Assembly (NCBI GenBank): GCA_016795325.1
Contig: JAEUHY010000015.1
Coordinates: 186,001 to 250,000, forward strand
Length of the DNA stretch: 64,000 nt
Direction: 5' to 3'
DNA from: Planctomycetota bacterium
Lineage (GTDB): Bacteria; Planctomycetota; UBA1135; GCA-002686595
In this document: positions 2,990 through 63,323 of the stretch, piece by piece
Numbering within the stretch: position 1 is the stretch's first letter
Layout: the number at the start of each line of letters is the position of its first letter
The notes under the pieces: model-generated
What the model was told of the DNA's origin: nothing
Seen by the model: only the letters and a program-made list of their open reading frames with translations
Databases searched by the model: none
Translations under genes and position numbers: made by a program

Positions 2990-5900
2990 ATGCTCCCCAC
3001 CTCCATGACGGCGCTTCTGGCGCGCGGTGCGCTGTCGTGCGCCCTCCTCGCTGCGCTGGCGCCGTCCGCGGCGGCCCAGGTGCGCGTGCGCCAGGTTTTC
3101 GGCGGGGGAGGAACGACCGGCGCCCTCTACACGCAGGACTTCGTCGAGCTGGTCAACCTCGGCGCGCCGCAGTCGCTCGCCGGCTGGTCGCTGCAGAGCG
3201 CCTCGGCGCTCGGCGGAACGTGGTCGGTCGCGCCGCTTCCGGCGGTGGTCCTCGGCAGCGGCAGCTCGTTCCTCGTGCACTACGCGACCGGCTCGACGCT
3301 CGGCGCGGGACAGGCGTTGGCGTTGCCGACCGCCGACGCGTCGACCTCGCTCGCACTTGCGTCGAGCTCGGGCAAGCTCGCGCTGGTCTCCTCGACGGTC
3401 GCGCTCAGCGGCGCCACGCCGAGCTCGCCGACGATCCTCGATTTCGTCGGCTACGGACCGGCGGCGAGTTGGAACGAGCCGGGCGCGCCGTTCAGCCCTG
3501 CTTCGAACGCACCTTCGCCCGGCGCCGAGCACGCGCTCCTGCGCTGGAACTGTGCGACGCCCGACAGCGACGCGAACGACGTCGACTGGGCCGTCGTGGT
3601 TCCCTCGCCGCGCAACTCGGCGCTCGCGCCCAACGTCGGTTTGCACGCGGTTGCGTTGTGTGCGCCTCGCGCCGCGGAGGCGGGACAGAGCGTGCGCTTG
3701 ACCGTCGACGTCCGCGCGTGTGGTGGCGCGCTGTTGAGCGGCGCCGCGAACGTGAACGTCGACCTCACGCCGCTGGGCGGCGCGGCGAACGTTGCGCTTC
3801 TCGACGACGGCCTCGCCGGCGATGCGCAGGCCGGCGACGGCGTTTACTCCACGCTCGCGAGCGTCGCCCCAGGCACGCCGGTCGGCACGTCGCAGCTGCG
3901 CGTGAGCATCGCCGACGGCGCGCTGTCCACGCAGTTGTTCGCCGGACTCGAAGTGCGGCCGACGGCCGCGCCCAACAACGATGCGTGCGCGAGCGCGCTC
4001 GCACTCGGGCCGAGCCTGCCCGCGAGCGTGAGCGGCACGTTCGCGCAGGCGACGGCGGAGCACAACCCGCTGCTCTCGGGGAGCTCGATCGCGCCGCCCG
4101 GCTCGATGGGCGCGCGCCGCGGCGTGTGGTTCCGTGTGGTCGGAACCGGAACCACGCTCAGCGCGAGCACCTGCGCGTCGCCGCTGAACGCCGGCGCGAT
4201 TCCCGACACCGTGCTCATGGTGCTCGCGGGCGACTGCGACGCGCTGTCGGTGGTTGCGTACAACGACGATGCGCCGGCGCTGTGCGGCGCGGGGAGCGGT
4301 ACGGAGCGTCGCTCGAGCGTCGCTTGGTGCGCCGCGGCCGGCGAGACGTACTGGATCTGGCTCGCGCCGTTCCTCGGCGGCTCGCAGACCTTCGCGTACA
4401 CGCTCGACGTCGTGGACGACGGCCTGCCGTGTGCGAGCGCCGCGCCCTTCGCGCTCTGTGCGGCGCCCAGCGGCGGTTCGCTCGAACTCGAAGCGAGCGT
4501 CGGTCCCGCCGCGAACGACGGCTGCGACTCGAACGCCGAGTTCTTTGTCAGTGCGGCGCCGAGCTTTCCGGCGCAGCGTTGGGTCGGCACGGCGCGCCAG
4601 CAGGCCAACGCGCGCGACACGGATTGGTACCGCTTCCAGGCGAGCTCGTCGACGAGTGTGACGGCGCAGCTCGAGGCTCAGTTCCACGGCGTCCTCGAGG
4701 TTTGGGCGCTGAATTCGACCGGCAGTTGCAGCGGCGCTGCGTTGCTCTCCAGCAGCGCTCCCGCGGCGCGTTGCTCGGTGAGTGCGATCAACTTCTCCGT
4801 CGTCGCCGGCGAGTGGTACGCCGTGCGCGTCGTGCCGCAGAACACCTTCGCGGGCGCTGCGTTCGGCGGTTTTTCGCCGGGGGGCCGCGGCGTCGGCTAC
4901 GCGCTCGAGTTGGCGCTGCCGAATCCGATCCCCAACGACACGTGCCTCGGCGCGTTCGCGCTCGCTTGTCCTTCGAGCACGAGCGGCGCCACAACGGGCG
5001 CCGACATCGACCTCGGCGCGCCGATCTGCGTTGCGCCCGGCGGGCAGGACGCGTCGCCGCTCGCGCCCGGCGTGTGGTATTCGCTCACGCTTCCCGGTGC
5101 GACTGGTCTCGATGACCGTGTCGTCAGCGCGCAGCTCTCGAGCGCCGCGTTCGACGCGCGCATCAGCGTCTTCGAGGGCGCTTGCGGGTCGCTCGTGTGC
5201 GTCGCCGCGAACGACGACGCGTCGCCGGCGGGATTGCCGTTGGTCGCGTGGCGCGCGAGCGCAGCGACGAACTACTGGATCCTCGTGCACGGCGCGCCGA
5301 GCGAAAGCGGCGCATTCCAGCTCGAATTGGAGTGCGCGTTGCCCGCGGCGAACGACGACTGCGCGAGCGCCACGCTGCTGAGCTCCGCGAGCGGCGCGCT
5401 CGCCGGCGATTTCGTCGGCGCGACGGCCAGCGTCGGCAGCGCTTGGACGCAGGCGGCGAGCTGCGCTCCGCCCTACGCGTTCTTCGACGTGTGGTACGAG
5501 CTCGAGCTCGACTGCGCGACGAACGTGTCGCTCGACACCTGCGGCGCGAGCGACACGTTGCTGTCCGTGCACTCGGCCTGTCCGAGCGCGAGCGCGACGT
5601 TCGAGCTCGGCGGCGCCTGCAACGACGACGGCGCCGGCGCTTGCGCGCCGGGTGCGGAGCTCTCGCTCGCTCTCGGGCCGGGCTCGTACCTCGTCCGCGT
5701 CGCGAGCGCGGCGCCGGCTGGAGCGTTCACGCTGACGTGGTCCCAGGCGGACAGCGACGGCGACGGCGCGCTCGACTGCGTCGACGGCTGCCCGCTCGAT
5801 CCGCTCAAGCTCGCTCCCGGTGCGTGCGGTTGTGGTTCGATCGATGTCGACAGCGATGGCGACGGCGCGTTCGACTGCGTCGACGCTTGCCCGCTCGATC

Positions 5901-7543
5901 CGTTGAAGATTGCCCCCGGACAGTGCGGCTGCGGAGTTGCGGACCTTGACAGCGACGGCGACGGTACGGCGGATTGCGTCGACAACTGCCCGCTCGATCC
6001 GCTCAAACTCGCTCCTGGGCAGTGCGGCTGCGGAGTTGTGGACCTCGATAGCGATGGCGACGCCGTTGCGGACTGCGTCGACGGTTGTCCGCTCGATCCG
6101 CTCAAGCTCGCACCCGGCGCTTGCGGTTGCGGAACGCCCGATGTCGACAGCGATGGCGACGGAGCGCTCGACTGCGTCGACGGCTGTCCGCTCGATCCGC
6201 TCAAGCTCGCACCCGGCGCGTGCGGCTGCGGAACGCCCGATGTCGACAGCGATGGCGACGGCGCGCTCGACTGCGTCGACGGCTGTCCGCTCGATCCGCT
6301 CAAGCTCGCGCCCGGCGCCTGCGGCTGCGGAACGCCCGACGTCGACAGCGATGGCGACGGTGCCTTCGACTGCGTCGACAACTGTCCGCTCGATCCGCTG
6401 AAGACGTCGCCGGGCCAGTGCGGCTGCAGCGTCGTGGACCTCGACAGCGACGCCGACGGAACGGCGGACTGCGTCGACGATTGTCCGCTTGATCCGCTGA
6501 AAACTGCTCCTGGCCAGTGCGGCTGCGGAGTTGCGGACCTCGACAGCGATGGCGACAGCGTCGCCGACTGCGTCGACGGCTGCCCGCTCGATCCGCTCAA
6601 GCTCACAGCCGGCGCGTGCGGCTGCGGAACGCCCGATGTCGACAGCGATGGCGACGGCGCGCTCGACTGCGTCGACGGCTGCCCGTTCGATCCGCTCAAG
6701 CTCGCTCCCGGCACGTGCGGTTGCGGTTCACCCGACGTCGACAGCGATGGCGATGGCGCGCTCGACTGCGTCGACGGCTGCCCGTTCGATCCGCTCAAGC
6801 TTGCACCCGGCGCCTGCGGCTGCGGAACGCCCGAGGTCGACAGCGACGGCGACGGCGCGTTCGACTGCGTCGACAACTGCCCGCTCGATCCGCTGAAAAC
6901 GGCGCCGGGCCAGTGCGGCTGCGGAGTCGCGGACCTCGACACCGACGGCGACAGGGTCGCGGACTGCGTGGACAACTGCGACGCGCTCGCGAATCCGGCG
7001 CAGGCCGATTGCGACCTCGACGGCGTCGGCGACGTGTGCGAGTACGCGGCCGGAACCGCGCGCGACCTCAACAACAACGGCCAGCCCGACAACTGCGAGC
7101 TCGGCGCGTTCTTCAACTACTGCACGGCGGGCACTTCGACCGCGGGTTGCACGGCCGCGATGGGCGCGAGCGGCGTGCTGAGCGCGAGCGCGACGAGCGG
7201 GTTCATGCTCGGCGCCACGGGTGTGGAGGGCGACAAGCTCGGCATCCTCTTCTACAGCATCAGCGGCCCCGCATCGCAGCCGTGGTTCGGCGGCTCGACC
7301 AGCTTCAAGTGCGTGAAGTCGCCGATGCAGCGCCTCACGCCGCTGGTCTCGGGCGGAACCGCGGGCGCCTGCGACGGCCAGTTGATGCAGGACGTGCAGG
7401 TCTACTTCGCCGCCAATCCGGCCGCGCTCGGCGCGCCGCTCACCGTCGGCGGCTTGTACAGCTTCCAGGCTTGGTATCGCGATCCTCCTGCGCCGGCGAC
7501 GACCTCGCTCTCCGACGCACTGCAGGTCACGTGCGCGCCGTGA
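2990..7543 (+). CDS. Giant secreted protein: lamin-tail domain, thrombospondin type-3 repeats, C-terminal YCTAG domain
   Basis: A 1,517-residue exported protein. The start MLPTSMTALLARGALSCALL gives a signal peptide ending near SAAAQ; ATG 3005 is an alternative. Domain order: lamin-tail-like domain (about 31-200, with FVELVNLGAPQSLAGWSLQ), a CARDB-like beta domain (about 210-330), several Cys-containing beta-sandwich modules resembling bacterial pre-peptidase/adhesin domains (about 335-915), twelve exact 33-residue thrombospondin type-3-like repeats from residue 921, one canonical repeat, then a roughly 140-residue domain starting YCTAGTST. The Asp-rich repeats (DSDGDG, with paired Cys) are expected to bind calcium and form a rigid stalk. 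It is probably a surface or matrix protein; the partner is unknown. The gene overlaps the next by four bases. Confidence 0.9.
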   Translation: MLPTSMTALLARGALSCALLAALAPSAAAQVRVRQVFGGGGTTGALYTQDFVELVNLGAPQSLAGWSLQSASALGGTWSVAPLPAVVLGSGSSFLVHYATGSTLGAGQALALPTADASTSLALASSSGKLALVSSTVALSGATPSSPTILDFVGYGPAASWNEPGAPFSPASNAPSPGAEHALLRWNCATPDSDANDVDWAVVVPSPRNSALAPNVGLHAVALCAPRAAEAGQSVRLTVDVRACGGALLSGAANVNVDLTPLGGAANVALLDDGLAGDAQAGDGVYSTLASVAPGTPVGTSQLRVSIADGALSTQLFAGLEVRPTAAPNNDACASALALGPSLPASVSGTFAQATAEHNPLLSGSSIAPPGSMGARRGVWFRVVGTGTTLSASTCASPLNAGAIPDTVLMVLAGDCDALSVVAYNDDAPALCGAGSGTERRSSVAWCAAAGETYWIWLAPFLGGSQTFAYTLDVVDDGLPCASAAPFALCAAPSGGSLELEASVGPAANDGCDSNAEFFVSAAPSFPAQRWVGTARQQANARDTDWYRFQASSSTSVTAQLEAQFHGVLEVWALNSTGSCSGAALLSSSAPAARCSVSAINFSVVAGEWYAVRVVPQNTFAGAAFGGFSPGGRGVGYALELALPNPIPNDTCLGAFALACPSSTSGATTGADIDLGAPICVAPGGQDASPLAPGVWYSLTLPGATGLDDRVVSAQLSSAAFDARISVFEGACGSLVCVAANDDASPAGLPLVAWRASAATNYWILVHGAPSESGAFQLELECALPAANDDCASATLLSSASGALAGDFVGATASVGSAWTQAASCAPPYAFFDVWYELELDCATNVSLDTCGASDTLLSVHSACPSASATFELGGACNDDGAGACAPGAELSLALGPGSYLVRVASAAPAGAFTLTWSQADSDGDGALDCVDGCPLDPLKLAPGACGCGSIDVDSDGDGAFDCVDACPLDPLKIAPGQCGCGVADLDSDGDGTADCVDNCPLDPLKLAPGQCGCGVVDLDSDGDAVADCVDGCPLDPLKLAPGACGCGTPDVDSDGDGALDCVDGCPLDPLKLAPGACGCGTPDVDSDGDGALDCVDGCPLDPLKLAPGACGCGTPDVDSDGDGAFDCVDNCPLDPLKTSPGQCGCSVVDLDSDADGTADCVDDCPLDPLKTAPGQCGCGVADLDSDGDSVADCVDGCPLDPLKLTAGACGCGTPDVDSDGDGALDCVDGCPFDPLKLAPGTCGCGSPDVDSDGDGALDCVDGCPFDPLKLAPGACGCGTPEVDSDGDGAFDCVDNCPLDPLKTAPGQCGCGVADLDTDGDRVADCVDNCDALANPAQADCDLDGVGDVCEYAAGTARDLNNNGQPDNCELGAFFNYCTAGTSTAGCTAAMGASGVLSASATSGFMLGATGVEGDKLGILFYSISGPASQPWFGGSTSFKCVKSPMQRLTPLVSGGTAGACDGQLMQDVQVYFAANPAALGAPLTVGGLYSFQAWYRDPPAPATTSLSDALQVTCAP
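5750..6937 (+). repeat. Twelve in-frame 99-bp tandem repeats (thrombospondin type-3-like)
   Basis: Twelve units, each exactly 99 bp, encode 33 residues of the form DSDGDGxxDCVDxCP, then LDPLKxAPGxCGCGxxDV. The unit after the last one starts at 6938 and reverts to the canonical repeat form ending in DVCE. Units 5 and 6 are nearly identical in DNA, which points to recent copy-number change. Units ending TPDV and units ending VADL or VVDL are interspersed. Confidence 0.95.
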
Positions 7544-10500
7544 AGCCCCTGTCGACAAGCGCGTGGCGGCGCATCGCCGCGCTGGTCGGCCGCGTTGGGC
7601 TCGCGTCGCTCGGCGCTCTCGCGGCGCAGGCACAGGCGGAAGTTCGCATCGCGCAGGTGTACGCCTCCGGAGGCGCCGCGGGCTCGCTCTTCGCGCGCGA
7701 TTTCGTCGAGCTCTACAACTCGGGCGCGCCGCAGGACCTTTCGGGCTGGACCTTGCAGCATGCCAGCGCGAGCGGGAGCACCTGGAGTTCAGCGGCTCTT
7801 CCCGCGCTCGTGCTCGCGCCGGGCGAGCGCTTGCTCGTGCGCTTCTCCGGCGAGCTTGCGCTCGGTGCGGGACAGGCGCCGGACCTGCCGGCCTACGACG
7901 CAGACCATCCCGCGTCACTCGCGCCGGCGGGAGGCAAGCTCGCATTGTGTGCGAGCGCTGCGCCGCTCACGGGCGCGCAGCCCAACTCGGCGACGATCGT
8001 CGATTTCCTCGGCTGGGGCAGCGCGAACTGGCGCGAGCCGTTCGTCGCAGGCTCGGCGCTCGACAACGCGCCCGCGTTGAACAGCGCGGTCGCCCTGCTG
8101 CGTGCGGAGTGCGGCGCGCGCGATGTCGAGTCCAACGCGCTCGACTTCCAGCTCGCGTTTCCCCGGCCGCGCGGGCGCACGAGCAACTCCAGCGCCGGCG
8201 TCGACCTCGGCGTGTTCGTCACGCCGCGGCTGGCGCGTCCGCTCGACAGTGTGTTGCTCGTGGCGGCGCCGCTCGACTGCGCCGCGGGCGCGCAGAGCGC
8301 TCCCTGGGTCCTCAGCGTCGACGCCAGCGCGCTCGGACTCGGCGCGGCCGTGCCGCTCAACGACGCCGGTCTGTTCGGCGATGTTCTCGCCGGAGACGGC
8401 CTGTATTCGCGCAGTTTCAGCTTGCCCGCGGCGCTCGCGCCGGGCGACCTCACGCTTGCCGTGAGCGCCTCCGACGGCGCGCGCGCATCGCTCGCTCGCG
8501 CGGCGCTCGTCGTGTTGCCCGCGAGCGTGCCCGGTGTGGACGCGTGCGCTTCGGCGGAAGTCGTGAGCGGGCCCTTTCCGTTGACGCGCGTCGGCTCGCT
8601 TGCGGCGGCCAACTCAGAGACCAATCCGCTGCTTCACGCCAGCTCGTCGGTGAGCACGATGGGCGCGCGCCGCGGACACTGGCTGCGGGTGCTCGGCAAC
8701 GGCTCGACGTTGAGCGCGGACACGTGCCTCTCGGCGCCGCTGGGCCTGGACGCGCCCGACACCGTGCTCCTCGTGGCGACCGGCTCGTGCGGCGCGTTGA
8801 GCGTGGTGGGCTTCGGCGATGACCAAGTGAGCCTGTGTGGCGCCGGATTCGGCCCCGAGCGACGCTCGCGCGTCGACTGGTGCGCGGCCGCGGGCCAGGA
8901 GTACTTCGTGTGGGTCGCGGCCTTCAACTCCGGCAGCGTTCCGCTGAACTACGAGCTGCGCATTTCGGATCTGGGGACCGCCTGCACGCCGACCGTGGGT
9001 GGTGCGCTGTGCGCTCCCGACCTCGTGGACGTCGACAGTTTCGAGCGCGAGTCGCCGCTGGGCCCGGCGCGCAACGACGTGTGTCTGGGAGCGAACGAGC
9101 CCGAGCTGCTCGAAGCTGCGTCGCCGGCGCGTGTGCACCGCGGTCACGCGCGTGCGTTCGGCGCGCACGTCGACGTCGACGCATACCGCGTGTTCGCGCC
9201 GGTGAGCGAGCTCTACCGCGCGACGCTCGACGCGCCCTTCCGCGCGCGGCTCGAGCTGTACCAGCTCGGAGCGACGGGCGCGTGCCCGCTCGGCGCGCTG
9301 CTCGCCGCGAGCGCGCTGTCGGAACGTTGCGAGCCCCTCGAACTCGAGCATCCGCTGGTCGCGGGCGGCTGGTACGCGCTCGTGGTGCGGCCTCAAAACA
9401 GCGCCGATCCGGCTTGGCTCGGCGGATTCGAACCCGGCGGCGCCGCGAGCGCGTACACGCTGACCACGGAGCTCGGCAGCGCGCCGCCCAACGATGCCTG
9501 CGGCAACGCGGCGCAGCTGGCGTGCGGCGCAACGGCGGCCGGCACGACCTGGGGCGCGCGCCCCGAAGCAACAGGGCTGCTCAACGCGTGCGGCGGGCCG
9601 GGTGCGGGCACTTCGGGCGCGTACACGATCGAGCAGCCCGGCGTGTGGTACCGCGTCCAGGCGCCGTCCGGCGCCGACAGCGCGCTGTTCGTCGAGATCG
9701 AGTCAGCCGTGTTCGACTCGCGCCTGGCGGTGTTCTCGGGCCTGTGCAACGCCCTGGTGTGCGTGAGCGCGAACGACGACATCGATGCGAGCGGGCGCTC
9801 GAAGGTCGGCTGGCGCGCGCAGGCCGGAGTCACGTACCGCGTGCTCGTGCACGGCGCCGACGCCGTGCGCGGGCCGTTCACGCTCTCGGCGCGTTGTGAG
9901 CCGCTGGCCGACGGCGACGAGTGTGCTCAGCCCGTTGAGATCGACGGTTTCTCGGGCGCGGCGCTGCTGTCGAGCCTCGGCGCGACGGGCGCGAACACGA
10001 GCTATCCGCTCGGCGGCGCGGGAGGGCTCACGCCGTGCCTCGTCAACGGCCCGAGCACGTCGTCCTACTTCGATCAGTGGCTGAGCTTCGATGCGCCCTG
10101 CGACGGGCTCGTGCAGTTCGAGACCTGCGGCGCGTTCGAAGCCGTGCTGTCGGTGCACGCCGACTGTCCGTCCGCCGTCGATCCGTTCGTGCTCGCGTGC
10201 AGCGACGCTGCGCCGACGGCCTGCGCGCCTGGAGCGCGCGTCAGCTTCGCGACGGTGGCAGGCGCGACGTACTGGATCAGATTCGCGGCGCTGGACGGCG
10301 CCCAGGACGGCGGACTGGCGACGTTGAGCTGGAGCTACGCGGACGCCGACGCCGACGGGACTCCCGATTGCGCTGACGGTTGCCCGAACGATCCGCTCAA
10401 GCTCGCGCCGGGCGTGTGCGGCTGCGGCGTGAGCGACCTCGACAGCGACGGCGACGGTGTTGCGAATTGCCTCGACGGTTGCCCGAACGACCCGCTCAAG

Positions 10501-11631
10501 CTCGCGCCGGGCGTCTGCGGCTGCGGCGTGAGCGACGTCGACAGCGATGGCGACGGTGTTGCGAATTGCGTCGACGGTTGCCCGACCGACCCGCTGAAGC
10601 TCGCGCCGGGCGTGTGCGGCTGCGGCGTGAGCGACGTCGACAGCGATGGCGACGGTGTTGCGAATTGCGTCGACGGTTGCCCGACCGACCCGCTGAAGCT
10701 CGCGCCGGGCGTCTGCGGCTGCGGCGTGAGCGACGTCGACAGCGATGGCGACGGCGTTGCGAACTGCCTCGACGAATGCCCGAACGATCCGCTCAAGGTC
10801 GCGCCAGGCGCTTGCGGCTGCGGCGTGAGCGACGTCGACAGCGACGGCGACGGCGTTGCTAACTGCCTCGACGAATGCCCGAACGATCCGCTCAAGGTCG
10901 TGCCAGGCGCTTGCGGCTGCGGAGTGAGCGACGTCGACAGCGACGGCGACGGCGTCGCGAATTGCATCGACGGTTGCCCGAACGATCCGCTCAAGCTCGC
11001 GCCAGGCGCTTGCGGCTGCGGAGTGAGCGACGTCGACAGCGATGGCGACGGCCTCGCGAATTGCATCGACAACTGCGCTCCCATCGCCAATCCGCTGCAG
11101 AGCGACTGCGACGTCGATGGCGTCGGCGACGCGTGCGAGATCGGCCTGGGCGGCGAGCCTGACACGAACCAGAACGGCGTGCCCGACAGCTGCGAGTTCG
11201 GCGCGCTCGTGAGCTATTGCACGAGCGGAACGAGCACTCAAGGTTGCGTGGGTGCGATGGGCGGCGTCGGCGTACCCAGCGTCAGCGCCGATCGCTCGTT
11301 CTTGTTGCAAGCCACGGGCGTCGACGGGCAGCGCGCGGGTCTGATCTTCTACGGCGTCAACGGACCGGCGAACTCGCCCTTCGCTTCGGGCCTGCTGTGC
11401 GTGAAGGCGCCGATCCAGCGCTCGACAGCGCTCCAATCGGGCGGAACCGCCGGCGTCTGCAACGGCCGACTCACATTGGACTGGACCGCGTTCCAGGCCA
11501 GCTACGTCGGCCTGGTGGGGGCGCCGTTCCAGGCCGGAGATCTGGTCTGGTCGCAGGCTTGGTGGCGCGATCCGCAGGCGCCGTCGGGCGCGCGCGGCAG
11601 CAACGCGCTCCAGTTCACGCTCGCGCCGTGA
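7540..11631 (+). CDS. Second giant secreted lamin-tail / thrombospondin type-3 repeat protein (paralogue)
   Basis: A 1,363-residue tandem paralogue of the preceding gene. The start is a GTG overlapping the upstream stop as GTGA, so translation is probably coupled. The N-terminus MKPLSTSAWRRIAALVGRVG leads into a signal peptide ending AAQAQA. The domain order is the same: lamin-tail domain (EVRIAQVY..., FVELYNSGAPQDLSGWTLQ), beta-sandwich modules with the shared MGARRGxW motif, seven 33-residue repeats from residue 935, one canonical repeat, and a C-terminal domain starting YCTSGTST and ending with a WWRDP motif. Repeats here read VANC rather than ADCV. Likely the same role as its neighbour in the cell envelope or extracellular matrix. 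The repeat number differs between the two (7 versus 12). Confidence 0.9.
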   Translation: MKPLSTSAWRRIAALVGRVGLASLGALAAQAQAEVRIAQVYASGGAAGSLFARDFVELYNSGAPQDLSGWTLQHASASGSTWSSAALPALVLAPGERLLVRFSGELALGAGQAPDLPAYDADHPASLAPAGGKLALCASAAPLTGAQPNSATIVDFLGWGSANWREPFVAGSALDNAPALNSAVALLRAECGARDVESNALDFQLAFPRPRGRTSNSSAGVDLGVFVTPRLARPLDSVLLVAAPLDCAAGAQSAPWVLSVDASALGLGAAVPLNDAGLFGDVLAGDGLYSRSFSLPAALAPGDLTLAVSASDGARASLARAALVVLPASVPGVDACASAEVVSGPFPLTRVGSLAAANSETNPLLHASSSVSTMGARRGHWLRVLGNGSTLSADTCLSAPLGLDAPDTVLLVATGSCGALSVVGFGDDQVSLCGAGFGPERRSRVDWCAAAGQEYFVWVAAFNSGSVPLNYELRISDLGTACTPTVGGALCAPDLVDVDSFERESPLGPARNDVCLGANEPELLEAASPARVHRGHARAFGAHVDVDAYRVFAPVSELYRATLDAPFRARLELYQLGATGACPLGALLAASALSERCEPLELEHPLVAGGWYALVVRPQNSADPAWLGGFEPGGAASAYTLTTELGSAPPNDACGNAAQLACGATAAGTTWGARPEATGLLNACGGPGAGTSGAYTIEQPGVWYRVQAPSGADSALFVEIESAVFDSRLAVFSGLCNALVCVSANDDIDASGRSKVGWRAQAGVTYRVLVHGADAVRGPFTLSARCEPLADGDECAQPVEIDGFSGAALLSSLGATGANTSYPLGGAGGLTPCLVNGPSTSSYFDQWLSFDAPCDGLVQFETCGAFEAVLSVHADCPSAVDPFVLACSDAAPTACAPGARVSFATVAGATYWIRFAALDGAQDGGLATLSWSYADADADGTPDCADGCPNDPLKLAPGVCGCGVSDLDSDGDGVANCLDGCPNDPLKLAPGVCGCGVSDVDSDGDGVANCVDGCPTDPLKLAPGVCGCGVSDVDSDGDGVANCVDGCPTDPLKLAPGVCGCGVSDVDSDGDGVANCLDECPNDPLKVAPGACGCGVSDVDSDGDGVANCLDECPNDPLKVVPGACGCGVSDVDSDGDGVANCIDGCPNDPLKLAPGACGCGVSDVDSDGDGLANCIDNCAPIANPLQSDCDVDGVGDACEIGLGGEPDTNQNGVPDSCEFGALVSYCTSGTSTQGCVGAMGGVGVPSVSADRSFLLQATGVDGQRAGLIFYGVNGPANSPFASGLLCVKAPIQRSTALQSGGTAGVCNGRLTLDWTAFQASYVGLVGAPFQAGDLVWSQAWWRDPQAPSGARGSNALQFTLAP
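10342..11034 (+). repeat. Seven in-frame 99-bp tandem repeats (thrombospondin type-3-like)
   Basis: Seven units of exactly 99 bp encode DSDGDGVANCxDxCPxDPLK followed by xAPGxCGCGVSDV. The eighth unit begins at 11035 and is the canonical, non-identical closing repeat. Several units are nearly identical at DNA level, so slippage or recombination could readily change the count. Confidence 0.95.
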
Positions 11632-53514: not shown

Positions 53515-54774
53515 ATGAAGGCGCCTTTGCCCAGTTTGATCGCGTGTGTTCTCGTCGTCAGCGTCGCGCACGCCCAGAGTCCGACGCCCTACTGCACGGC
53601 GGGCACGTCGACGAACGGCTGCACGCCGTCGATCCACGCCAACGTCCAGCCGAACACGGCGAATTCCGCCAGTTGCGTGATCACGGTCAGCGGCGTCGAA
53701 GGCCAAAAGCTCGGCCTCGTCTTCTACGGCGTCGACAACACGGGGTTCGCACCGACGCCGTGGGGTGTGGGCGGTACGAGTTGGCGCTGCGTGAAAGCGC
53801 CGACCACGCGCCTGGGTTCGTCGCAGAGCAGCGGCGGGTCTGCGGGCCAGTGCGACGGTTCGTACGCGATCGATTGGGATGCGCACCAGCTCGCCAACCC
53901 GCTGGCGCTGGGCAATCCGTGGCTCGCGGGCGACAAGGTCTTCGTCCAGTCGTGGTACCGCGATCCGCTTGCGGCGCTGAACTCGAACCTATCGAACGCG
54001 CTCGAGCTGACGCTTCACAATCCGCAGCCCACACCGTGCGCGAGCGCGATTGCCGGCTTAGTGGCGCTTCAGCCGGGGAGTTTTGTGATGGGCTCCGACG
54101 CAGCGAGCGGAGCGCCGTACAACAACGGCGTCCGAGAGCGGCCCGCCCATCCGGTGACGATCAGCTATTGCCTGTGGATGTCGGCGACGGAGGTCACGCA
54201 GGCGCAGTACGTCGCGTTGATGGGCCTGAATCCGTCGACGCACGTCGGCGCGAACAAGCCCGTCGAAGGCGTGAGTTGGCTCGACGCGCAGTCGTACTGC
54301 GCGGCGCTGACGGCCGAGCAGGCCGCGCTCGGGAACGTGCCGCCCGGGTATGAGTACCGCCTCCCGACCGAGGCCGAGTGGGAATATGCCTGTCGCGCCG
54401 GGACCACGACGGAGTTCAGTGCGGGTGCGGATTTGTTCTGCAACCAGGCGAACGTCGCCTACTCGAACCACTCGAGCTCGAGCTGCAACTCGAGCGGTCC
54501 GGCGCCCGTGGGAAGCTACGCACCCAATGCGTGGGGTCTGTACGACATGCACGGCAACGTGTTCGAGTGGTGCCTAGACTCGTTCGCCTACTACAACCTC
54601 GCCGCGTTGACGGATCCGTTCGTGACCGGCCAGCTCGGCCGGATCATCCGCGGCGGCAGCTGGTTCCACGGATCGAGTTTCGCTCGCTCCGCGTACCGCT
54701 ACTTCCTCAATCCCGGCAACACGGTCAGCGGCATCGGATTCCGCGTCGTGCTCGCGCCGATCCTCGTTCCGTAG
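53515..54774 (+). CDS. Secreted SUMF1/FGE-domain protein with N-terminal YCTAG domain (copy A)
   Basis: 419 residues. ATG with GGAG six bases upstream; signal peptide [20 protein letters not shown]. Residues about 26-170 are the cysteine-containing domain shared with the giant repeat proteins ([43 protein letters not shown]). Residues about 180-419 are a formylglycine-generating-enzyme-like (SUMF1) fold: [71 protein letters not shown] and GFRVVLAP. The paired copper-binding cysteines of genuine FGE are absent (SSFARSAYR at that place), so sulfatase activation is unlikely. Function unknown; exported. It is the most divergent of the four copies. Confidence 0.9.
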
Positions 54775-57770: not shown

Positions 57771-59045
57771 TTGAGCCTGACCACATATCGCACGCTGGCG
57801 GTTTTCTCGCTCGTTCCTCTGGCGTATGCGCAGACTCCGACGACGTACTGCACGGCGGGCATCTCGACGAACTTCTGCGTCCCGCAGATCAGCGCCAACG
57901 TACAGCCGAACACAGCGAACAGCGCGGGCTGTGTGATCACGACGAGCGGTCTGCCCGGCCAGAGGCAGGGCGTGGTCTTCTACGGCGTCGACAACTTTGG
58001 TTTCACGCCGACGCCATGGGGTGTAGGGGGCAGCAGTTTCCTGTGCGTGAAAGCGCCCATCAGGCGCATGGTTGACTCGCTGAACAGCGGTGGGACCGCC
58101 GGGGCGTGCAACGGGGCGTACGTGATCGACTGGGATGCCTTCCAAAACGCAAACCCGGCGGCGCTTGGCAATCCCTGGGTGCTGGGCGACAAGGTCTTCG
58201 TGCAGTCGTGGTACCGCGATCCGCTCGCGGTGAAGACGTCGAACCTCTCGAACGCGGTGGAGTTGACGCTTCGTGAGGCCCCGCTGACATCTTGCGTCAG
58301 CGCGATCCCAGGAATGGTCGTGATCCCGGCGGGGACGTTCACGCAGGGCTCGATCGCGGCGAGCGGGCCGCCGTACTTCGGCGAGTACGACGACCCCGTC
58401 GTGCGGCAGGTGACGATCAGCTACTGCTTCTGGATGGGCGCGACGGAGGTCACCCAGGCGCAGTATGCGGCGCTGATGGGAACGAACCCGTCGAACTTCC
58501 CGGGGGCGAACAACCCGGTCGAGCAGGTGAGTTGGTTCGACGCCCAGGCCTACTGCGCCGCGTTGACGGCGCAGCAGTCGGCCCAAGGCGCTGTGCCGCA
58601 GGGCTACGAGTACCGCTTGCCGACGGAAGCCGAGTGGGAGTACGCCTGCCGCGCTGGGACGACCTCGGAGTTCAACGTGGGGGCGAGCCTGCTCTGCAAC
58701 CAGGCGATGTTCAGCTACTCCTATCACTCGAACTCGCACTGCTGGAACGTGAGTGGGCCATTGCCCGGGCCACGCCCGGCGGGAAGCTATGCTCCGAACG
58801 CTTGGGGGCTGTACGACATGCACGGCAACGTCTGGGAGTGGTGCCTCGACTCGGTGGCGACCTACTCGGCGAGCCCGGTCACAGACCCTTTCGTCGCGAG
58901 CGGCCCCGGCCGGGTCATCCGTGGCGGCGGTTGGTACGACTACTCGATCGTCTGTCGCTCCGCGTTCCGGAACTACCGCGGCCCCGGCGACGCGAACGAC
59001 TACCTCGGGTTCCGGGTCGTGCTCGCCCCAGTGATCGTCCCGTAA
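57771..59045 (+). CDS. Secreted SUMF1/FGE-domain protein with N-terminal YCTAG domain (copy C)
   Basis: 424 residues. TTG start with AGGAGG five bases upstream; signal peptide MSLTTYRTLAVFSLVPLAYA. Near-copy of B over the first 170 residues, more divergent afterwards ([95 protein letters not shown]). A single Cys lies near the FGE active site. A few extra residues (SGPLPGPRPAGSY) precede the SYAPNAWG motif. The gene converges on dbpA with about 130 bases between the stops. Confidence 0.9.
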   Translation: MSLTTYRTLAVFSLVPLAYAQTPTTYCTAGISTNFCVPQISANVQPNTANSAGCVITTSGLPGQRQGVVFYGVDNFGFTPTPWGVGGSSFLCVKAPIRRMVDSLNSGGTAGACNGAYVIDWDAFQNANPAALGNPWVLGDKVFVQSWYRDPLAVKTSNLSNAVELTLREAPLTSCVSAIPGMVVIPAGTFTQGSIAASGPPYFGEYDDPVVRQVTISYCFWMGATEVTQAQYAALMGTNPSNFPGANNPVEQVSWFDAQAYCAALTAQQSAQGAVPQGYEYRLPTEAEWEYACRAGTTSEFNVGASLLCNQAMFSYSYHSNSHCWNVSGPLPGPRPAGSYAPNAWGLYDMHGNVWEWCLDSVATYSASPVTDPFVASGPGRVIRGGGWYDYSIVCRSAFRNYRGPGDANDYLGFRVVLAPVIVP

Positions 59046-59172: not shown

Positions 59173-60579
59173 TCAGCTCTGCGTCGCCTCGAGCAAGCGC
59201 ACTTTGACGGTCCGGCCCTTCACCTTGCCCTGCGAGAGCTTCTGCAGCGCGAGCCGCGCGATCGAGCGCTCGACCGCGACGTAGGTCGAGTGCTCGTTGA
59301 TGTGGATCTTGCCGACCTGCGAAGCGTTGAAGCCTGCGCTGCCGGTGAGCGCGCCGAGCACGTCTCCCGCGCGCATCTTTTCGCGCCGCCCGCCGAGAAT
59401 TTGCAGCGTCGCCATCGGCGGCACGAGCGGCGTTCGTGCGCCGGTGCGGCGCGGCGGGAGGTTCGCCCACTCAAACTTCACGCCGTGCGCCTCTTCGATG
59501 CGCTCGACAAAGATCCGCTCACGCCGGCTCGCGAGGCTGAAAGCCCAACCCTCCGAGTCGACGCGGCCCGTGCGGCCGATGCGGTGCGTGTGGACTTTCG
59601 GATCGGGCGAGATGTCGACGTTGATGACGGCTTCGAGTTCGGCGATGTCGAGCCCGCGCGCGGCGACATCGGTCGCGACGAGCACCGAGCAACTGCGGCC
59701 CGCGAACTGAACGAGCACCTGGTCGCGTTCGATCTGCTCGAGCTCGCCGTGCAGCGCCAGGGCGACGAAGCCGTGCGCCTCGAGCGTCGCGAGCAGGTCG
59801 CGACATTGCTCGCGCGTGTTGCAGAAGGCGAGCGTGCTCACCGGTCGGTGCTGGTCGAGCAGCACCGCGACCGCGTCGAGGCGCTCTTCTTCGTCGACCT
59901 TGTAGAACAGCTGGCGGATCTTGGTCGGCGCGTGCTGCTCGGGCAGCTTCACGTCCACGGGTTCGCGCAGGAACTGGCGGCTCAACTGCGCGATGCCGTC
60001 TGGGTATGTCGCGGAGAACAGAAGCGTCTGGCGCTCGGTCGGACAGGCGCGCGCGAGCTTCTCGATGTCGTCGTAGAAGCCCATATCGAGCATGCGGTCG
60101 GCTTCGTCGAACACCAGCGTGCTCAGCATCGACAGCTTGAGGCTCTCGCGTCGGACCAGATCGAGCAGTCGCCCGGGCGTGCCGACCACGACGTGAGCGC
60201 CGTACTCGAGGCTGGTCATCTGCGCGCGCGCGGGCGTTCCGCCGCACAGCGTGACGACCTTGAGGTTCTCCTCCGTGCGCGCGAGGCGCCGCAGCTCCTG
60301 CGCGACTTGCTCGGCGAGCTCGCGAGTCGGGCACAACACCAGCGCCTGCACGTTCGTGTTGCGCAGGTCGAGCTTGGAGAGCAGCACGAGGCCGAAGGCC
60401 GCCGTCTTTCCGCTTCCGGTCTTGGCCTGGGCGATCAAGTCGCGCCCGGCGAGTCCGTGCGGCAAGCTCGCCGCCTGGATCGGCGTCATCGTGCTGTAGC
60501 CCAGCTGAGCCAGGTTCGCGAGCGTGGCCGGGGAGAGCGGGAGGGAGCTGAACTGCAGTTCTGAGGCGGGCTGTTCCAT
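59173..60579 (-). CDS. dbpA: ATP-dependent RNA helicase DbpA
   Basis: A 468-residue DEAD-box protein acting in 50S ribosomal subunit assembly. Motifs in order: Q-motif GYSTMTPIQ, AKTGSGKT, PTRELAEQ, GTPGRLLD, DEAD in VFDEADRMLD, SAT in LLFSATYP, and ATDVAARGLDI with HRIGRTGR. The last about 75 residues (LQILGGRREKMRAGDVLGAL, GKIHINEHSTYVAVER, GKVKGRTVKVRLLEA) are the DbpA-specific RNA-binding domain, which in E. coli recognises 23S rRNA hairpin 92. Length agrees with E. coli DbpA (457). An extra degraded copy of its last about 50 bases lies about 4 kb to the left. Confidence 0.95.
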   Translation of the reverse strand: MEQPASELQFSSLPLSPATLANLAQLGYSTMTPIQAASLPHGLAGRDLIAQAKTGSGKTAAFGLVLLSKLDLRNTNVQALVLCPTRELAEQVAQELRRLARTEENLKVVTLCGGTPARAQMTSLEYGAHVVVGTPGRLLDLVRRESLKLSMLSTLVFDEADRMLDMGFYDDIEKLARACPTERQTLLFSATYPDGIAQLSRQFLREPVDVKLPEQHAPTKIRQLFYKVDEEERLDAVAVLLDQHRPVSTLAFCNTREQCRDLLATLEAHGFVALALHGELEQIERDQVLVQFAGRSCSVLVATDVAARGLDIAELEAVINVDISPDPKVHTHRIGRTGRVDSEGWAFSLASRRERIFVERIEEAHGVKFEWANLPPRRTGARTPLVPPMATLQILGGRREKMRAGDVLGALTGSAGFNASQVGKIHINEHSTYVAVERSIARLALQKLSQGKVKGRTVKVRLLEATQS

Positions 60580-60686: not shown

Positions 60687-60870
60687 TCACGCGTGACTTG
60701 GGCGGTCCGGAGCGCCGACGAGCGCGTCCACCTTCGCGTCGGTCGAGACGATTTTGCGGTAACCGTAGTCGCGCTGCGCAGGCGTCATGTCGTAGGAGCG
60801 CGACGTGCCGAGCTGCAACGCGACGACGCGCGTCAGCGGCGGCAACCTCGCGCGGCCCGCGCGATTCCGC
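60687..60870 (-). pseudogene. Displaced 3'-end copy of the oleD gene
   Basis: Minus-strand translation PPLTRVVALQLGTSRSYDMT, PAQRDYGYRKIVSTDAKVDA, LVGAPDRPSHA and stop, against PPLTRFVALQLGTSHSYDMT, PARRDFGYRELVSTDATVDA at the end of the intact oleD 1.6 kb to the right. DNA similarity is high over at least 130 bases, in the same orientation. The two copies bracket SUMF1 copy D as direct repeats. No start or upstream part is present. Confidence 0.85.
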
Positions 60871-60979
60871 GCTGGTCGGCTCGCTTTGGCAAGCGCGGCG
60901 CGCACATCCCAGTTGCCGCGCTTCGGGCTTCGGCTAGGCTTTGAGCAGGGAATGGTCTTGATTGGTTCGGAGGTCTCGC

Positions 60980-62242
60980 TTGAAGCTGCTCGCCGTTGCA
61001 TCGTCGTTCGTCACTCTGATCTCTTCGCTCTCGGCCGCCCAAGGTCCGACGACTTACTGCACCGCTGGCGTGACTTCGAGTTTCTGCGTCGCGCAGATCA
61101 CCGCCAGCGCGCAACCTAATGTTGTCAACACCGCTGGCTGCGTCATCACAACGAGCGGCCTACCTGGGAATCGACAGGGAGTCGTCTTCTACGGCGTGGA
61201 CAACAGCGGATTCACGCCGTCGATTTGGGGAGGCGCTGGCGGCAGCAGCTACCTCTGCGTTCAGGCGCCCACGAAGCGTCTGGGGGCAGCGCTGAACAGT
61301 GGAGGGACGGCAGGCCAGTGCAACGGCGTGTTCGTCGTCGACTGGGACGCTTTTCAGATCGCGAATCCGACCGCGCTCGGCAATCCGTGGAGCGTCGGCG
61401 ACACGGTCTTCGTGCAGTCTTGGTACCGCGATCCGCTCGCGGTCAAGACGTCGAACCTCTCGAATGCCACCGAGCTCACGCTGCGCGCGCCGGTGCCCAC
61501 GCCATGCGTATCGGCAGTGCCTGGGCTGGTCCTCGTCCCCGCGGGCACATTCTTCATGGGGTCGAACGCTGCGAACGGACCGCCATACTTTGGGGAGTAC
61601 AACGACCCTGTCGTACGGCAGGTGACGATCAGCTACTGCTTCTGGATGGGCGCGACCGAGGTCACACAGGCGCAGTACACGGCGTTGATGGGGACGAATC
61701 CCGCGTGGTTTCCAGGCGCGAACAACCCCATCGAAACCGTCAGTTGGTTCGACGCTCAGGCCTACTGCGCCGCACTCACCGTGCAGCAGTCTGCGCAGGG
61801 CGGCGTGCCCGCTGGCTACCACTACCGCCTACCGACGGAGGCCGAGTGGGAGTACGCATGTCGCGCGGGGACGACGACGGAGTTCAATGTTGGGGCAAGC
61901 CTGTTCTGCAATCAGGCGAAGTTCGGTTACTCAGATCACTCGAATTCCGTCTGCGGCCAAACTGGCACCGCGCCCGTGGCGAGCTTTGCGCCCAACGCAT
62001 GGGGTCTCCACGACATGCACGGCAACGTGTTTGAGTGGTGCCTGGACTCGCACGCGGCGTACGCGGCTGGCCCCGTTACGGATCCGTTCGTGACGGGCGG
62101 CACTTGGCGACTCCTTCGCGGCGGAAGTTGGTACGACAACACGAACAGCGGTCGCTCCGCGCGGCGCGTTCAGAATCCACCCAGCACGGCCGGCAAGTAC
62201 TTCGGATTCCGGGTCGTACTCGCCCCGATTCTCGTCCCGTAG
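60980..62242 (+). CDS. Secreted SUMF1/FGE-domain protein with N-terminal YCTAG domain (copy D)
   Basis: 420 residues. TTG start with GGAGG six bases upstream gives signal peptide MKLLAVASSFVTLISSLSAA; a TTG 18 bases earlier is less well placed. YCTAGVTSSFC, GVVFYGVDNSGFTPSIWG, CVQAPTKR and SWYRDP mark the first domain. The SUMF1 domain has [95 protein letters not shown] and GFRVVLAP. As in copy A, both FGE copper cysteines are absent. It is flanked on both sides by oleD 3' sequence and converges on the intact oleD. Confidence 0.9.
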   Translation: MKLLAVASSFVTLISSLSAAQGPTTYCTAGVTSSFCVAQITASAQPNVVNTAGCVITTSGLPGNRQGVVFYGVDNSGFTPSIWGGAGGSSYLCVQAPTKRLGAALNSGGTAGQCNGVFVVDWDAFQIANPTALGNPWSVGDTVFVQSWYRDPLAVKTSNLSNATELTLRAPVPTPCVSAVPGLVLVPAGTFFMGSNAANGPPYFGEYNDPVVRQVTISYCFWMGATEVTQAQYTALMGTNPAWFPGANNPIETVSWFDAQAYCAALTVQQSAQGGVPAGYHYRLPTEAEWEYACRAGTTTEFNVGASLFCNQAKFGYSDHSNSVCGQTGTAPVASFAPNAWGLHDMHGNVFEWCLDSHAAYAAGPVTDPFVTGGTWRLLRGGSWYDNTNSGRSARRVQNPPSTAGKYFGFRVVLAPILVP

Positions 62243-62321
62243 ACAATCCGAGCACGATTTGGCGCCTCGTGCGCGGTCGCCGGGCGCCGGCCCATCAAGC
62301 GCCGCGAAGGGCGTGCGCGAC

Positions 62322-63323
62322 TCAGTTTCGCGGCGCACGATCGCGCTGGACGATCAGCGCGTCCACCGTCGCGTCGGTCGAGACGAGCTCGCGATAGCCG
62401 AAATCGCGCCGCGCCGGAGTCATGTCGTAGGAGTGCGACGTACCGAGCTGCAGCGCGACGAAGCGCGTCAGCGGCGGTTCGCTGGCGCGGCCGGTGAGCT
62501 TCCAAAGCGTCTCGCACGTCGCGCCGAGCGCGTAGGCGCTGCGCAGCGAGAGCGAGCGGCGCACCGGCGGCAGGTCGAAGCGCGCGAGGAGCGCGTCGAT
62601 CCACGGCCAGAGCTTCACGGGCTCGTTCTGGCCGATGAAGTACGCGCGGCCGGCGTGCGGAGCGCCGAGTTCGAGCGCGTCAGCGGCGAGCAAGTGCGCG
62701 TGCGCGGCGTTGTCGACGGCGCACAGCGTGACCTCGTTCGAGCCGTCGCCGACGCGCACGAGCTTGCCGGCGTGCGCGCGAGCGAGCAGCCGCGGGATCA
62801 GGTGCGGATCGCCGGGGCCGAAGATCAGGTGCGGGCGCAGCGCGGTCGTCGCGAGACCCCAGCGGCCGTTGACCGAGAGCGCGAGCTTCTCGGCGTGCGC
62901 TTTTGTCTCGGGGTACGCGCACAAGTAGCGCTCGGGGTAGGGGAGATCGTTCGACGCGCGCAGGTGGTCCGCGCCGCCGAAGCACACGCTCGGGCTGCTG
63001 GTGAACACGAGCCTGCGCACGCGCCGCACCTCGCAGGCCGCGATGACGTTTTCGGTCCCGGTCACGTTGCTCGCGACGTATTCGGCGCGCGGTCCCCACA
63101 CGCCGGTCTTGGCGGCGACGTGGAACACGCACTCGACGCCCTTGAAGGCGTGGCGCAGCGCCTCGCGGTCCGAGAGGTCGAGCTGCACGACACGCGCGCC
63201 GAGTTTCTCGAGCTCCGGCGCCGGCCTGCGCGTTCCGGCGAGCACGTCGTCGCCGCGTTGGCGCAGTGCGCGCACGATGGCGCTGCCGAGGAAGCCGTTG
63301 GCGCCGGTGACGAGCGCTTTCAC
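62322..63323 (-). CDS. oleD: OleD-like NAD(P)-dependent 2-alkyl-3-oxoalkanoate reductase
   Basis: A 333-residue short-chain dehydrogenase of the 3-beta-HSD type. GTG start giving MKALVTGANGFLGSAIVRAL with the Rossmann motif TGxxGxLG; the active-site motif is in YPETKAHAEK (YxxxK) with an upstream SSPS serine. FHVAAKTGVWG, RPHLIFGPGDPHLIPRLL and AVDNAAHAHLLAA are typical of OleD. OleD reduces the beta-keto acid formed by OleA during long-chain olefin biosynthesis. The upstream OleC-like gene supports this; oleA and oleB are not in the window. Confidence 0.82.
   Translation of the reverse strand: MKALVTGANGFLGSAIVRALRQRGDDVLAGTRRPAPELEKLGARVVQLDLSDREALRHAFKGVECVFHVAAKTGVWGPRAEYVASNVTGTENVIAACEVRRVRRLVFTSSPSVCFGGADHLRASNDLPYPERYLCAYPETKAHAEKLALSVNGRWGLATTALRPHLIFGPGDPHLIPRLLARAHAGKLVRVGDGSNEVTLCAVDNAAHAHLLAADALELGAPHAGRAYFIGQNEPVKLWPWIDALLARFDLPPVRRSLSLRSAYALGATCETLWKLTGRASEPPLTRFVALQLGTSHSYDMTPARRDFGYRELVSTDATVDALIVQRDRAPRN

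Follow-up and report, generated by a model that had tools for sequence, protein, structure and literature searches.

Structure of the locus

SUMF1 copy D, by then already a distinct gene, most likely reached its present position through a single duplicative insertion into the 3′ end of oleD, and not by a fresh duplication of a SUMF1 gene together with a neighbouring 3′ end. This corrects the view of the surrounding bracket as the mark of a mobile or recently duplicated SUMF1 cassette. The event is otherwise an ordinary genome rearrangement of a known kind, well resolved. Its scar is unusually readable, comprising an empty site, both junctions, a decaying duplicate and a rough date, and it shows how a gene from a large family with rapid turnover came to occupy a new site with no mobile element to be recognised.

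The window is the whole stretch of 64,000 nucleotides that was analysed, contig C59:186001-250000 of the source genome, labelled G000. At its right end, copy C (forward strand, ending at 59045) is followed by a helicase, an orphan oleD 3′ end, copy D and oleD. The features, with G001 denoting a genome of the same genus, are:

59173-60579, reverse strand: DEAD-box helicase (PF00270, PF00271, PF03880), ancestral neighbour of oleD, which it adjoins in G001
60687-60868, reverse strand: orphan oleD 3′ end with the ancestral tail and stop codon (60687-60689); 128/153 identical to G001 oleD
60721-60868, reverse strand: left repeat copy, 148 nt, 83.8% identical to 62356-62503
60869-62355, no strand: inserted segment, about 1.49 kb; identity to the G001 empty site breaks off at either side
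60869-60979, no strand: insert leader, 111 nt, matched credibly nowhere else in G000 or G001
60980-62242, forward strand: SUMF1 copy D, 420 aa, N-terminal domain and FGE-sulfatase domain; intact ORF with TTG start
62243-62355, no strand: insert trailer, 113 nt, whose last 34 nt now encode the oleD end, as judged from the junction comparison with G001
62322-63323, reverse strand: oleD, 333 aa, whose C-terminal tail has been replaced; residues 1-325 are 94% identical to G001
62356-62503, reverse strand: right repeat copy, 148 nt, still within oleD (self-comparison)

The name oleD is that of the initial annotation; by Pfam the product is a 3-beta-HSD/epimerase-type dehydrogenase. Copy D matches PF03781 at residues 180-413 (E 2.3e-45, 155.7 bits, cut-off 23.3). 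Formylglycine-generating enzymes (SUMF1/FGE) carry an active-site cysteine pair near the C-terminus; copy D lacks this pair, having no cysteine in its RGGSW...GFR stretch. On copies C and D Pfam reported the FGE domain only. The N-terminal domain of about 150 residues in the SUMF1 copies occurs at more than 100 places in G000, mostly fused to other sequences (150 matches among those listed in the search of this genome).

The bracket is a direct repeat of 153 nt (60716-60868 and 62351-62503), identical at 127 of 153 positions and in the same orientation; the BLAST self-comparison of the whole window returned it as 148 nt at 83.8% identity (E = 2.8e-39). The claim that the end of oleD is repeated on both sides of copy D was thus borne out (148-153 nt, 83-84%), and the proposed length of 130-180 bases and outer limits (60687 and 62490) were about right, 60687 being the old stop codon of the orphan. 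It also held that one gene and no recombinase lie between the repeats: in the ORF list of the insert the only long frames were copy D, the sole long and intact one, and its antisense or overlapping frames, and no recombinase ORF was present. No tRNA was found in the window and no Rfam match was obtained, and a promoter and terminator scan found nothing. Elsewhere in the window (5750-6952 and 10367-11070) there are two mutually related tandem arrays of a 99-nt (33-codon) repeat, with about 12 and about 7 copies.

The empty site and the junctions

oleD was searched in 61 genomes, the source genome and 60 relatives, of which just one other, G001, belongs to the same genus. On its contig C4, which matches WYBT01000012.1, a single oleD 3′ end is separated by a 79-nt spacer from the same DEAD-box helicase (locus L041: oleD stop codon ending at 11002, helicase beginning at 11082), and copy D is absent. 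Past the helicase, on the other strand, follows a SUMF1 gene orthologous to copy C. An empty site, oleD without copy D in a relative, is therefore present, and two full oleD genes, which would have pointed to a later truncation of the left one, were not seen in related genomes. Among the 37 oleD loci compared (L011-L047, with some places represented twice), G001 is the only one with a close helicase beside oleD, a 40% identical one occurs in L022, and copy D adjoins oleD only in the window's own locus, most of these loci being covered with only about 1.5 kb of flank.

The segment 58069-60868, orphan included, aligns to G001 in one piece (92.0% over 2801 positions); for the oleD side the figures are 87.9% and 1664 positions. 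Against these 88-92% identical flanks, no copy-D orthologue was found in G001: the two best DNA matches reach 73% and 76%, and the protein is 60-68% identical to the better full-length G001 copies and 75% to the truncated C4 copy.

Junctions were mapped by identity to G001 in 12-nt steps. On the orphan side, identity falls from 9/12 to 4/12 at 60868/60869, and the steps further upstream hold 1 to 6 of 12. On the oleD side it is 8/12 in the step 62348-62359 and 4-5/12 in the next two. One later step, around 62323, again gives 9/12; we take this as chance near the stop codon, continued homology in a badly diverged oleD tail being a less likely alternative. The orphan keeps 7-11/12 through and past its stop codon, and its homology to the G001 oleD tail runs on to about 60677. 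The present oleD ends in ...DALIVQRDRAPRN, G001 oleD in ...DALVGTLARPSHD and the orphan in ...DALVGAPDRPSHA. By this comparison the orphan evidently keeps the ancestral oleD tail, stop codon and spacer, and in the full-length gene about 10 terminal codons have, by all appearances, given way to codons from the insert. oleD had been described as intact to the right of copy D; this needs correction for its last ~10 codons (62325-62355), which are unlike the congener, the orphan's tail being the one that is alike.

Over the 153 nt, the right-hand oleD copy is identical to G001 oleD at 138 positions and the orphan at 128, which marks both repeat copies as evidently native to the target oleD.

Constraint and timing

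The differences from G001 within the repeat are distributed unequally over the codon positions: 25 in the orphan (7/6/12) against 15 in oleD (2/0/13), a contrast with Fisher p = 0.02; orphan and oleD differ from each other at 26 positions. Assigned to branches, positions 1 and 2 (102 sites) give 12 changes to the orphan, 1 to oleD and 1 to G001, and position 3 (51 sites) gives 6, 7 and 6. Such a distribution indicates that oleD is under constraint and that the orphan is unconstrained and drifts neutrally. The orphan branch over all sites (18/153, 0.118) amounts to 0.92 of the third-position branch length in oleD and G001 (95% range 0.48-1.89). At fourfold sites G000 and G001 differ by 41/205 (20%) in oleD and 45/264 (17%) in the helicase, which places the species split at about 0.09-0.10 per lineage. 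The orphan would thus have drifted for about as long as G000 and G001 have been separate, with the wide error given by that range.

The sites at which two of the three sequences agree number 7 for orphan and oleD (with G001 differing), 18 for oleD and G001 (with the orphan differing) and 8 for orphan and G001 (with oleD differing). The outgroup L042 agrees with the odd one out at 2, 2 and 1 of these sites, so that the patterns favour neither order of insertion and species split. Five of the 7 orphan = oleD sites bunch beside the oleD junction, and conversion between the repeat copies is possible. A conceivable order, to which we give a minor share of the probability, is that copy D was in place before the species split and that G001 lost it by recombination between the direct repeats. 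The orphan branch, as long as the split, would fit with this, the site patterns do not speak for either order, and a deletion between the repeats would yield a perfect empty site. However, one extra event is needed, and the outgroup, polarising 2 sites for and 2 against, gives no positive support. This variant concerns the order of events and not the route of entry, and its probability overlaps with that of the other readings.

Origin of copy D within the SUMF1 family

Fifteen full SUMF1 copies were counted in G000, and G001 has 14 matches at E <= 1e-60, of which 13 were aligned and one partial match was omitted. In a family-wide search 15 of 81 genomes, G000 and G001 included, matched at this threshold; the best match beyond the genus has 60% identity along the whole protein, and up to 68% is seen in a few shorter matches confined to the domain. 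In a tree of the 28 copies, weakly resolved (7 of 25 inner branches starred, bootstrap unsettled), copy D groups with C34a, C34b and G1_C14a (98/96) and not with its neighbour copy C, which groups with copy B. The closest relative of copy D shifts along the gene, copy C being closest over residues 161-300, and for this reason we relied on fourfold sites. At these, copy D differs from C at 97/176, B at 95/177, C34b at 81/172, C34a at 82/167, C38a at 88/170, C39 at 84/173 and G1_C4 at 70/141, that is by 47-55% from seven paralogs (6 of the 14 other full G000 copies and one from G001). Compared with the 20% and 17% of oleD and helicase, this points to a copy D lineage much older than its insertion. 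A recent paralog duplication is ruled out for the seven copies compared in this way; the remaining paralogs were compared with copy D solely by protein identity and the tree.

Leader and trailer had no credible match among the best 40 candidates per genome in G000 and G001 (best non-self E 0.0084 and 0.016), and no close donor of copy D was found in either assembly. The suggestion that a unit of SUMF1 gene and neighbouring 3′ end had been duplicated is not supported by these data, as copy D has no recent common ancestor with copy C or the other tested copies and its flanks differ from theirs.

Two further observations concern the family. Copy C (58200-59045) and its G001 C4 orthologue (L041 12616-13593) differ at only 10/170 fourfold sites, with 0/34 and 0/30 in two 60-codon bins; silent change is thus close to zero along much of the SUMF1 domain, beside oleD and helicase at 17-20%, which suggests recent exchange or conversion. 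The last ~130 nt of copies A-D (ending at 54774, 57177, 59045 and 62242) encode hypervariable C-terminal tails that resemble DGR variable regions, and among PDB entries copy D is matched best by 2y3c, a variable protein from T. denticola. Of 462 variable codons, 323 end in C (276 expected), and in the tail copy C and G001 C4 differ by 7 amino-acid changes and 1 silent change. DGR diversification was considered and rejected: the codon pattern is suggestive, but neither a template repeat nor a DGR reverse transcriptase was found in the two genomes, each about 90% complete. A 123-nt template guess matched gene tails only, and RVT_1 had no match in G000 and one retron-like match in G001. The latter gene (L224 5939-6931, contig C26; best NCBIfam model retron St85 type, below cut-off) lies near a contig end, is preceded by a small helix-turn-helix-like ORF and has no counterpart that we could find in G000.

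Proposed mechanism and alternatives

Before the insertion, the helicase would have come straight after oleD, the order that G001 still shows. A segment of ~1.49 kb with an already distinct SUMF1-family gene would then have entered oleD within its last ~10 codons, with duplication of 148 nt of native oleD, one copy on each side. The oleD-proximal copy would have stayed in frame and gained a tail of ~10 codons and a stop codon from the insert, and the distal copy, severed from its gene, would have decayed. The likeliest route to this arrangement does without a recombinase and may have taken either of two forms. Copying could have left oleD near its end, switched to another template that holds the SUMF1 segment and come back into oleD at a point 148 nt upstream, a case of break-induced replication with template switching; or two staggered breaks 148 nt apart could have been repaired with capture of the segment. 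Ku was found in neither of the two genomes (G000 and G001), each about 90% complete, which favours copying over end-joining. Capture by end-joining was set aside on this ground, with the reservation that Ku-independent joining may have acted. Taken together, native sequence on both sides, a single cargo gene and the lack of a recombinase and of Ku favour template-switch copying over integration or end-joining. As both genomes are MAG-like, the assemblies may lack a donor, Ku or recombinase that the organisms possess. The empty site, the two junctions, the native origin of both repeats, the neutral drift of the orphan and the lack of a close donor in either assembly are observed, and from them we infer the single event and its route. 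A duplicative insertion of an old gene, by whatever route, is in our judgement very probable, and a single one by copying or capture is rather probable.

The main rival is a single crossover of the Campbell type, in which a circle with copy D and ~148 nt of the oleD 3′ end integrated by homologous recombination. It would leave the same final order, and each repeat copy ends where the homology of the circle would end; but the circle must already have carried an oleD 3′ fragment, the right repeat looks native and not imported, and among the matching phage and plasmid records (23 and 327) there is none whose match spans 80% of copy D. We therefore regard this route as unlikely. Less likely again is site-specific integration of a mobile cassette at the gene's 3′ end, with a recombinase acting in trans or since lost. 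The position and the displaced old end resemble island integration, and the initial annotation had proposed an element that enters at a gene's 3′ end and restores it: copy D did enter there and the original end was displaced, but ~10 codons were replaced and not restored. Nor is it supported that an element brought a replacement 3′ end, the right oleD copy being native (2 of its 15 changes from G001 lie outside third positions). Site-specific crossover cores are usually far shorter than a repeat of the 148-nt scale, and no other copy was recognised with such a bracket. With no recombinase ORF inside, no tRNA in the window, no Rfam match and no phage or plasmid match over 80%, the mobile cassette was rejected. 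A tandem duplication of the block made up of copy C, helicase and oleD 3′ end, after which the second helicase was deleted and C diverged to D, would also yield the observed gene order, and D is 0.90 identical to C over residues 201-260. Yet the fourfold divergence between them is high in all 60-codon bins while the repeats, one side drifting, differ by just 17%, the leader and trailer of D are unlike those of C, and the weakly resolved tree separates the two; this is the most improbable of the readings.

Other copies of the family

Flanks were compared up to 2.5 kb per side for 27 of the 28 copies (G1_C4 is without upstream flank; for C39, C17, C38c and G1_C3 one of the two flanks is shorter than 600 nt). 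Repeats between the flanks at E <= 1e-3 were obtained for 12 copies, D included. Most of the other repeats fall on neighbouring SUMF1 genes or their flanks; there was also a 57-nt repeat around C54b and short repeats at G1_C14b and G1_C41. A look for similar brackets elsewhere had been proposed; only copy D was recognised as flanked by a fragment of an unrelated gene, with those few short repeats left over. C34a and C34b lie with small genes in a 6.5-kb segment specific to G000 (L172 5705-12256, C34:75704-82255), whose G001 neighbours are ~80 nt apart; a bracket was looked for around this segment and none was found. Copies with conserved surroundings (C12/C62, the C38 array and the A-C array) indicate that the family is not generally scattered. 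That members of the SUMF1 family spread gene by gene with no recombinase involved, copy D being one landing and C34a/C34b lying in another G000-only segment, we consider doubtful. If this were true, the hypervariable C-terminal tails would turn such spread into a means of distributing new binding surfaces.

Comparison with known systems

Genomic islands integrate at gene 3′ ends in such a way that the frame is kept and the old end displaced. The copy D insertion is alike in that oleD keeps its frame and its old 3′ end has moved to the far side of the insert; it differs by the absence of an integrase, a single cargo gene, last codons that are replaced and not restored, and repeats native to the host. 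Target-site duplications of bacterial IS elements usually comprise few bases. Here, too, target sequence is doubled around an insert, but 148 nt is far above that size and no transposase ORF is present. Template switching is described in the MMBIR paper (PMC2621351), which draws on E. coli among others. FoSTeS/MMBIR as described there differs in that a comparison of template and junction microhomology needs the donor, which was not found for copy D; it shares with the copy D locus the duplication of native sequence around a segment from elsewhere, with need of neither a recombinase nor long homology.
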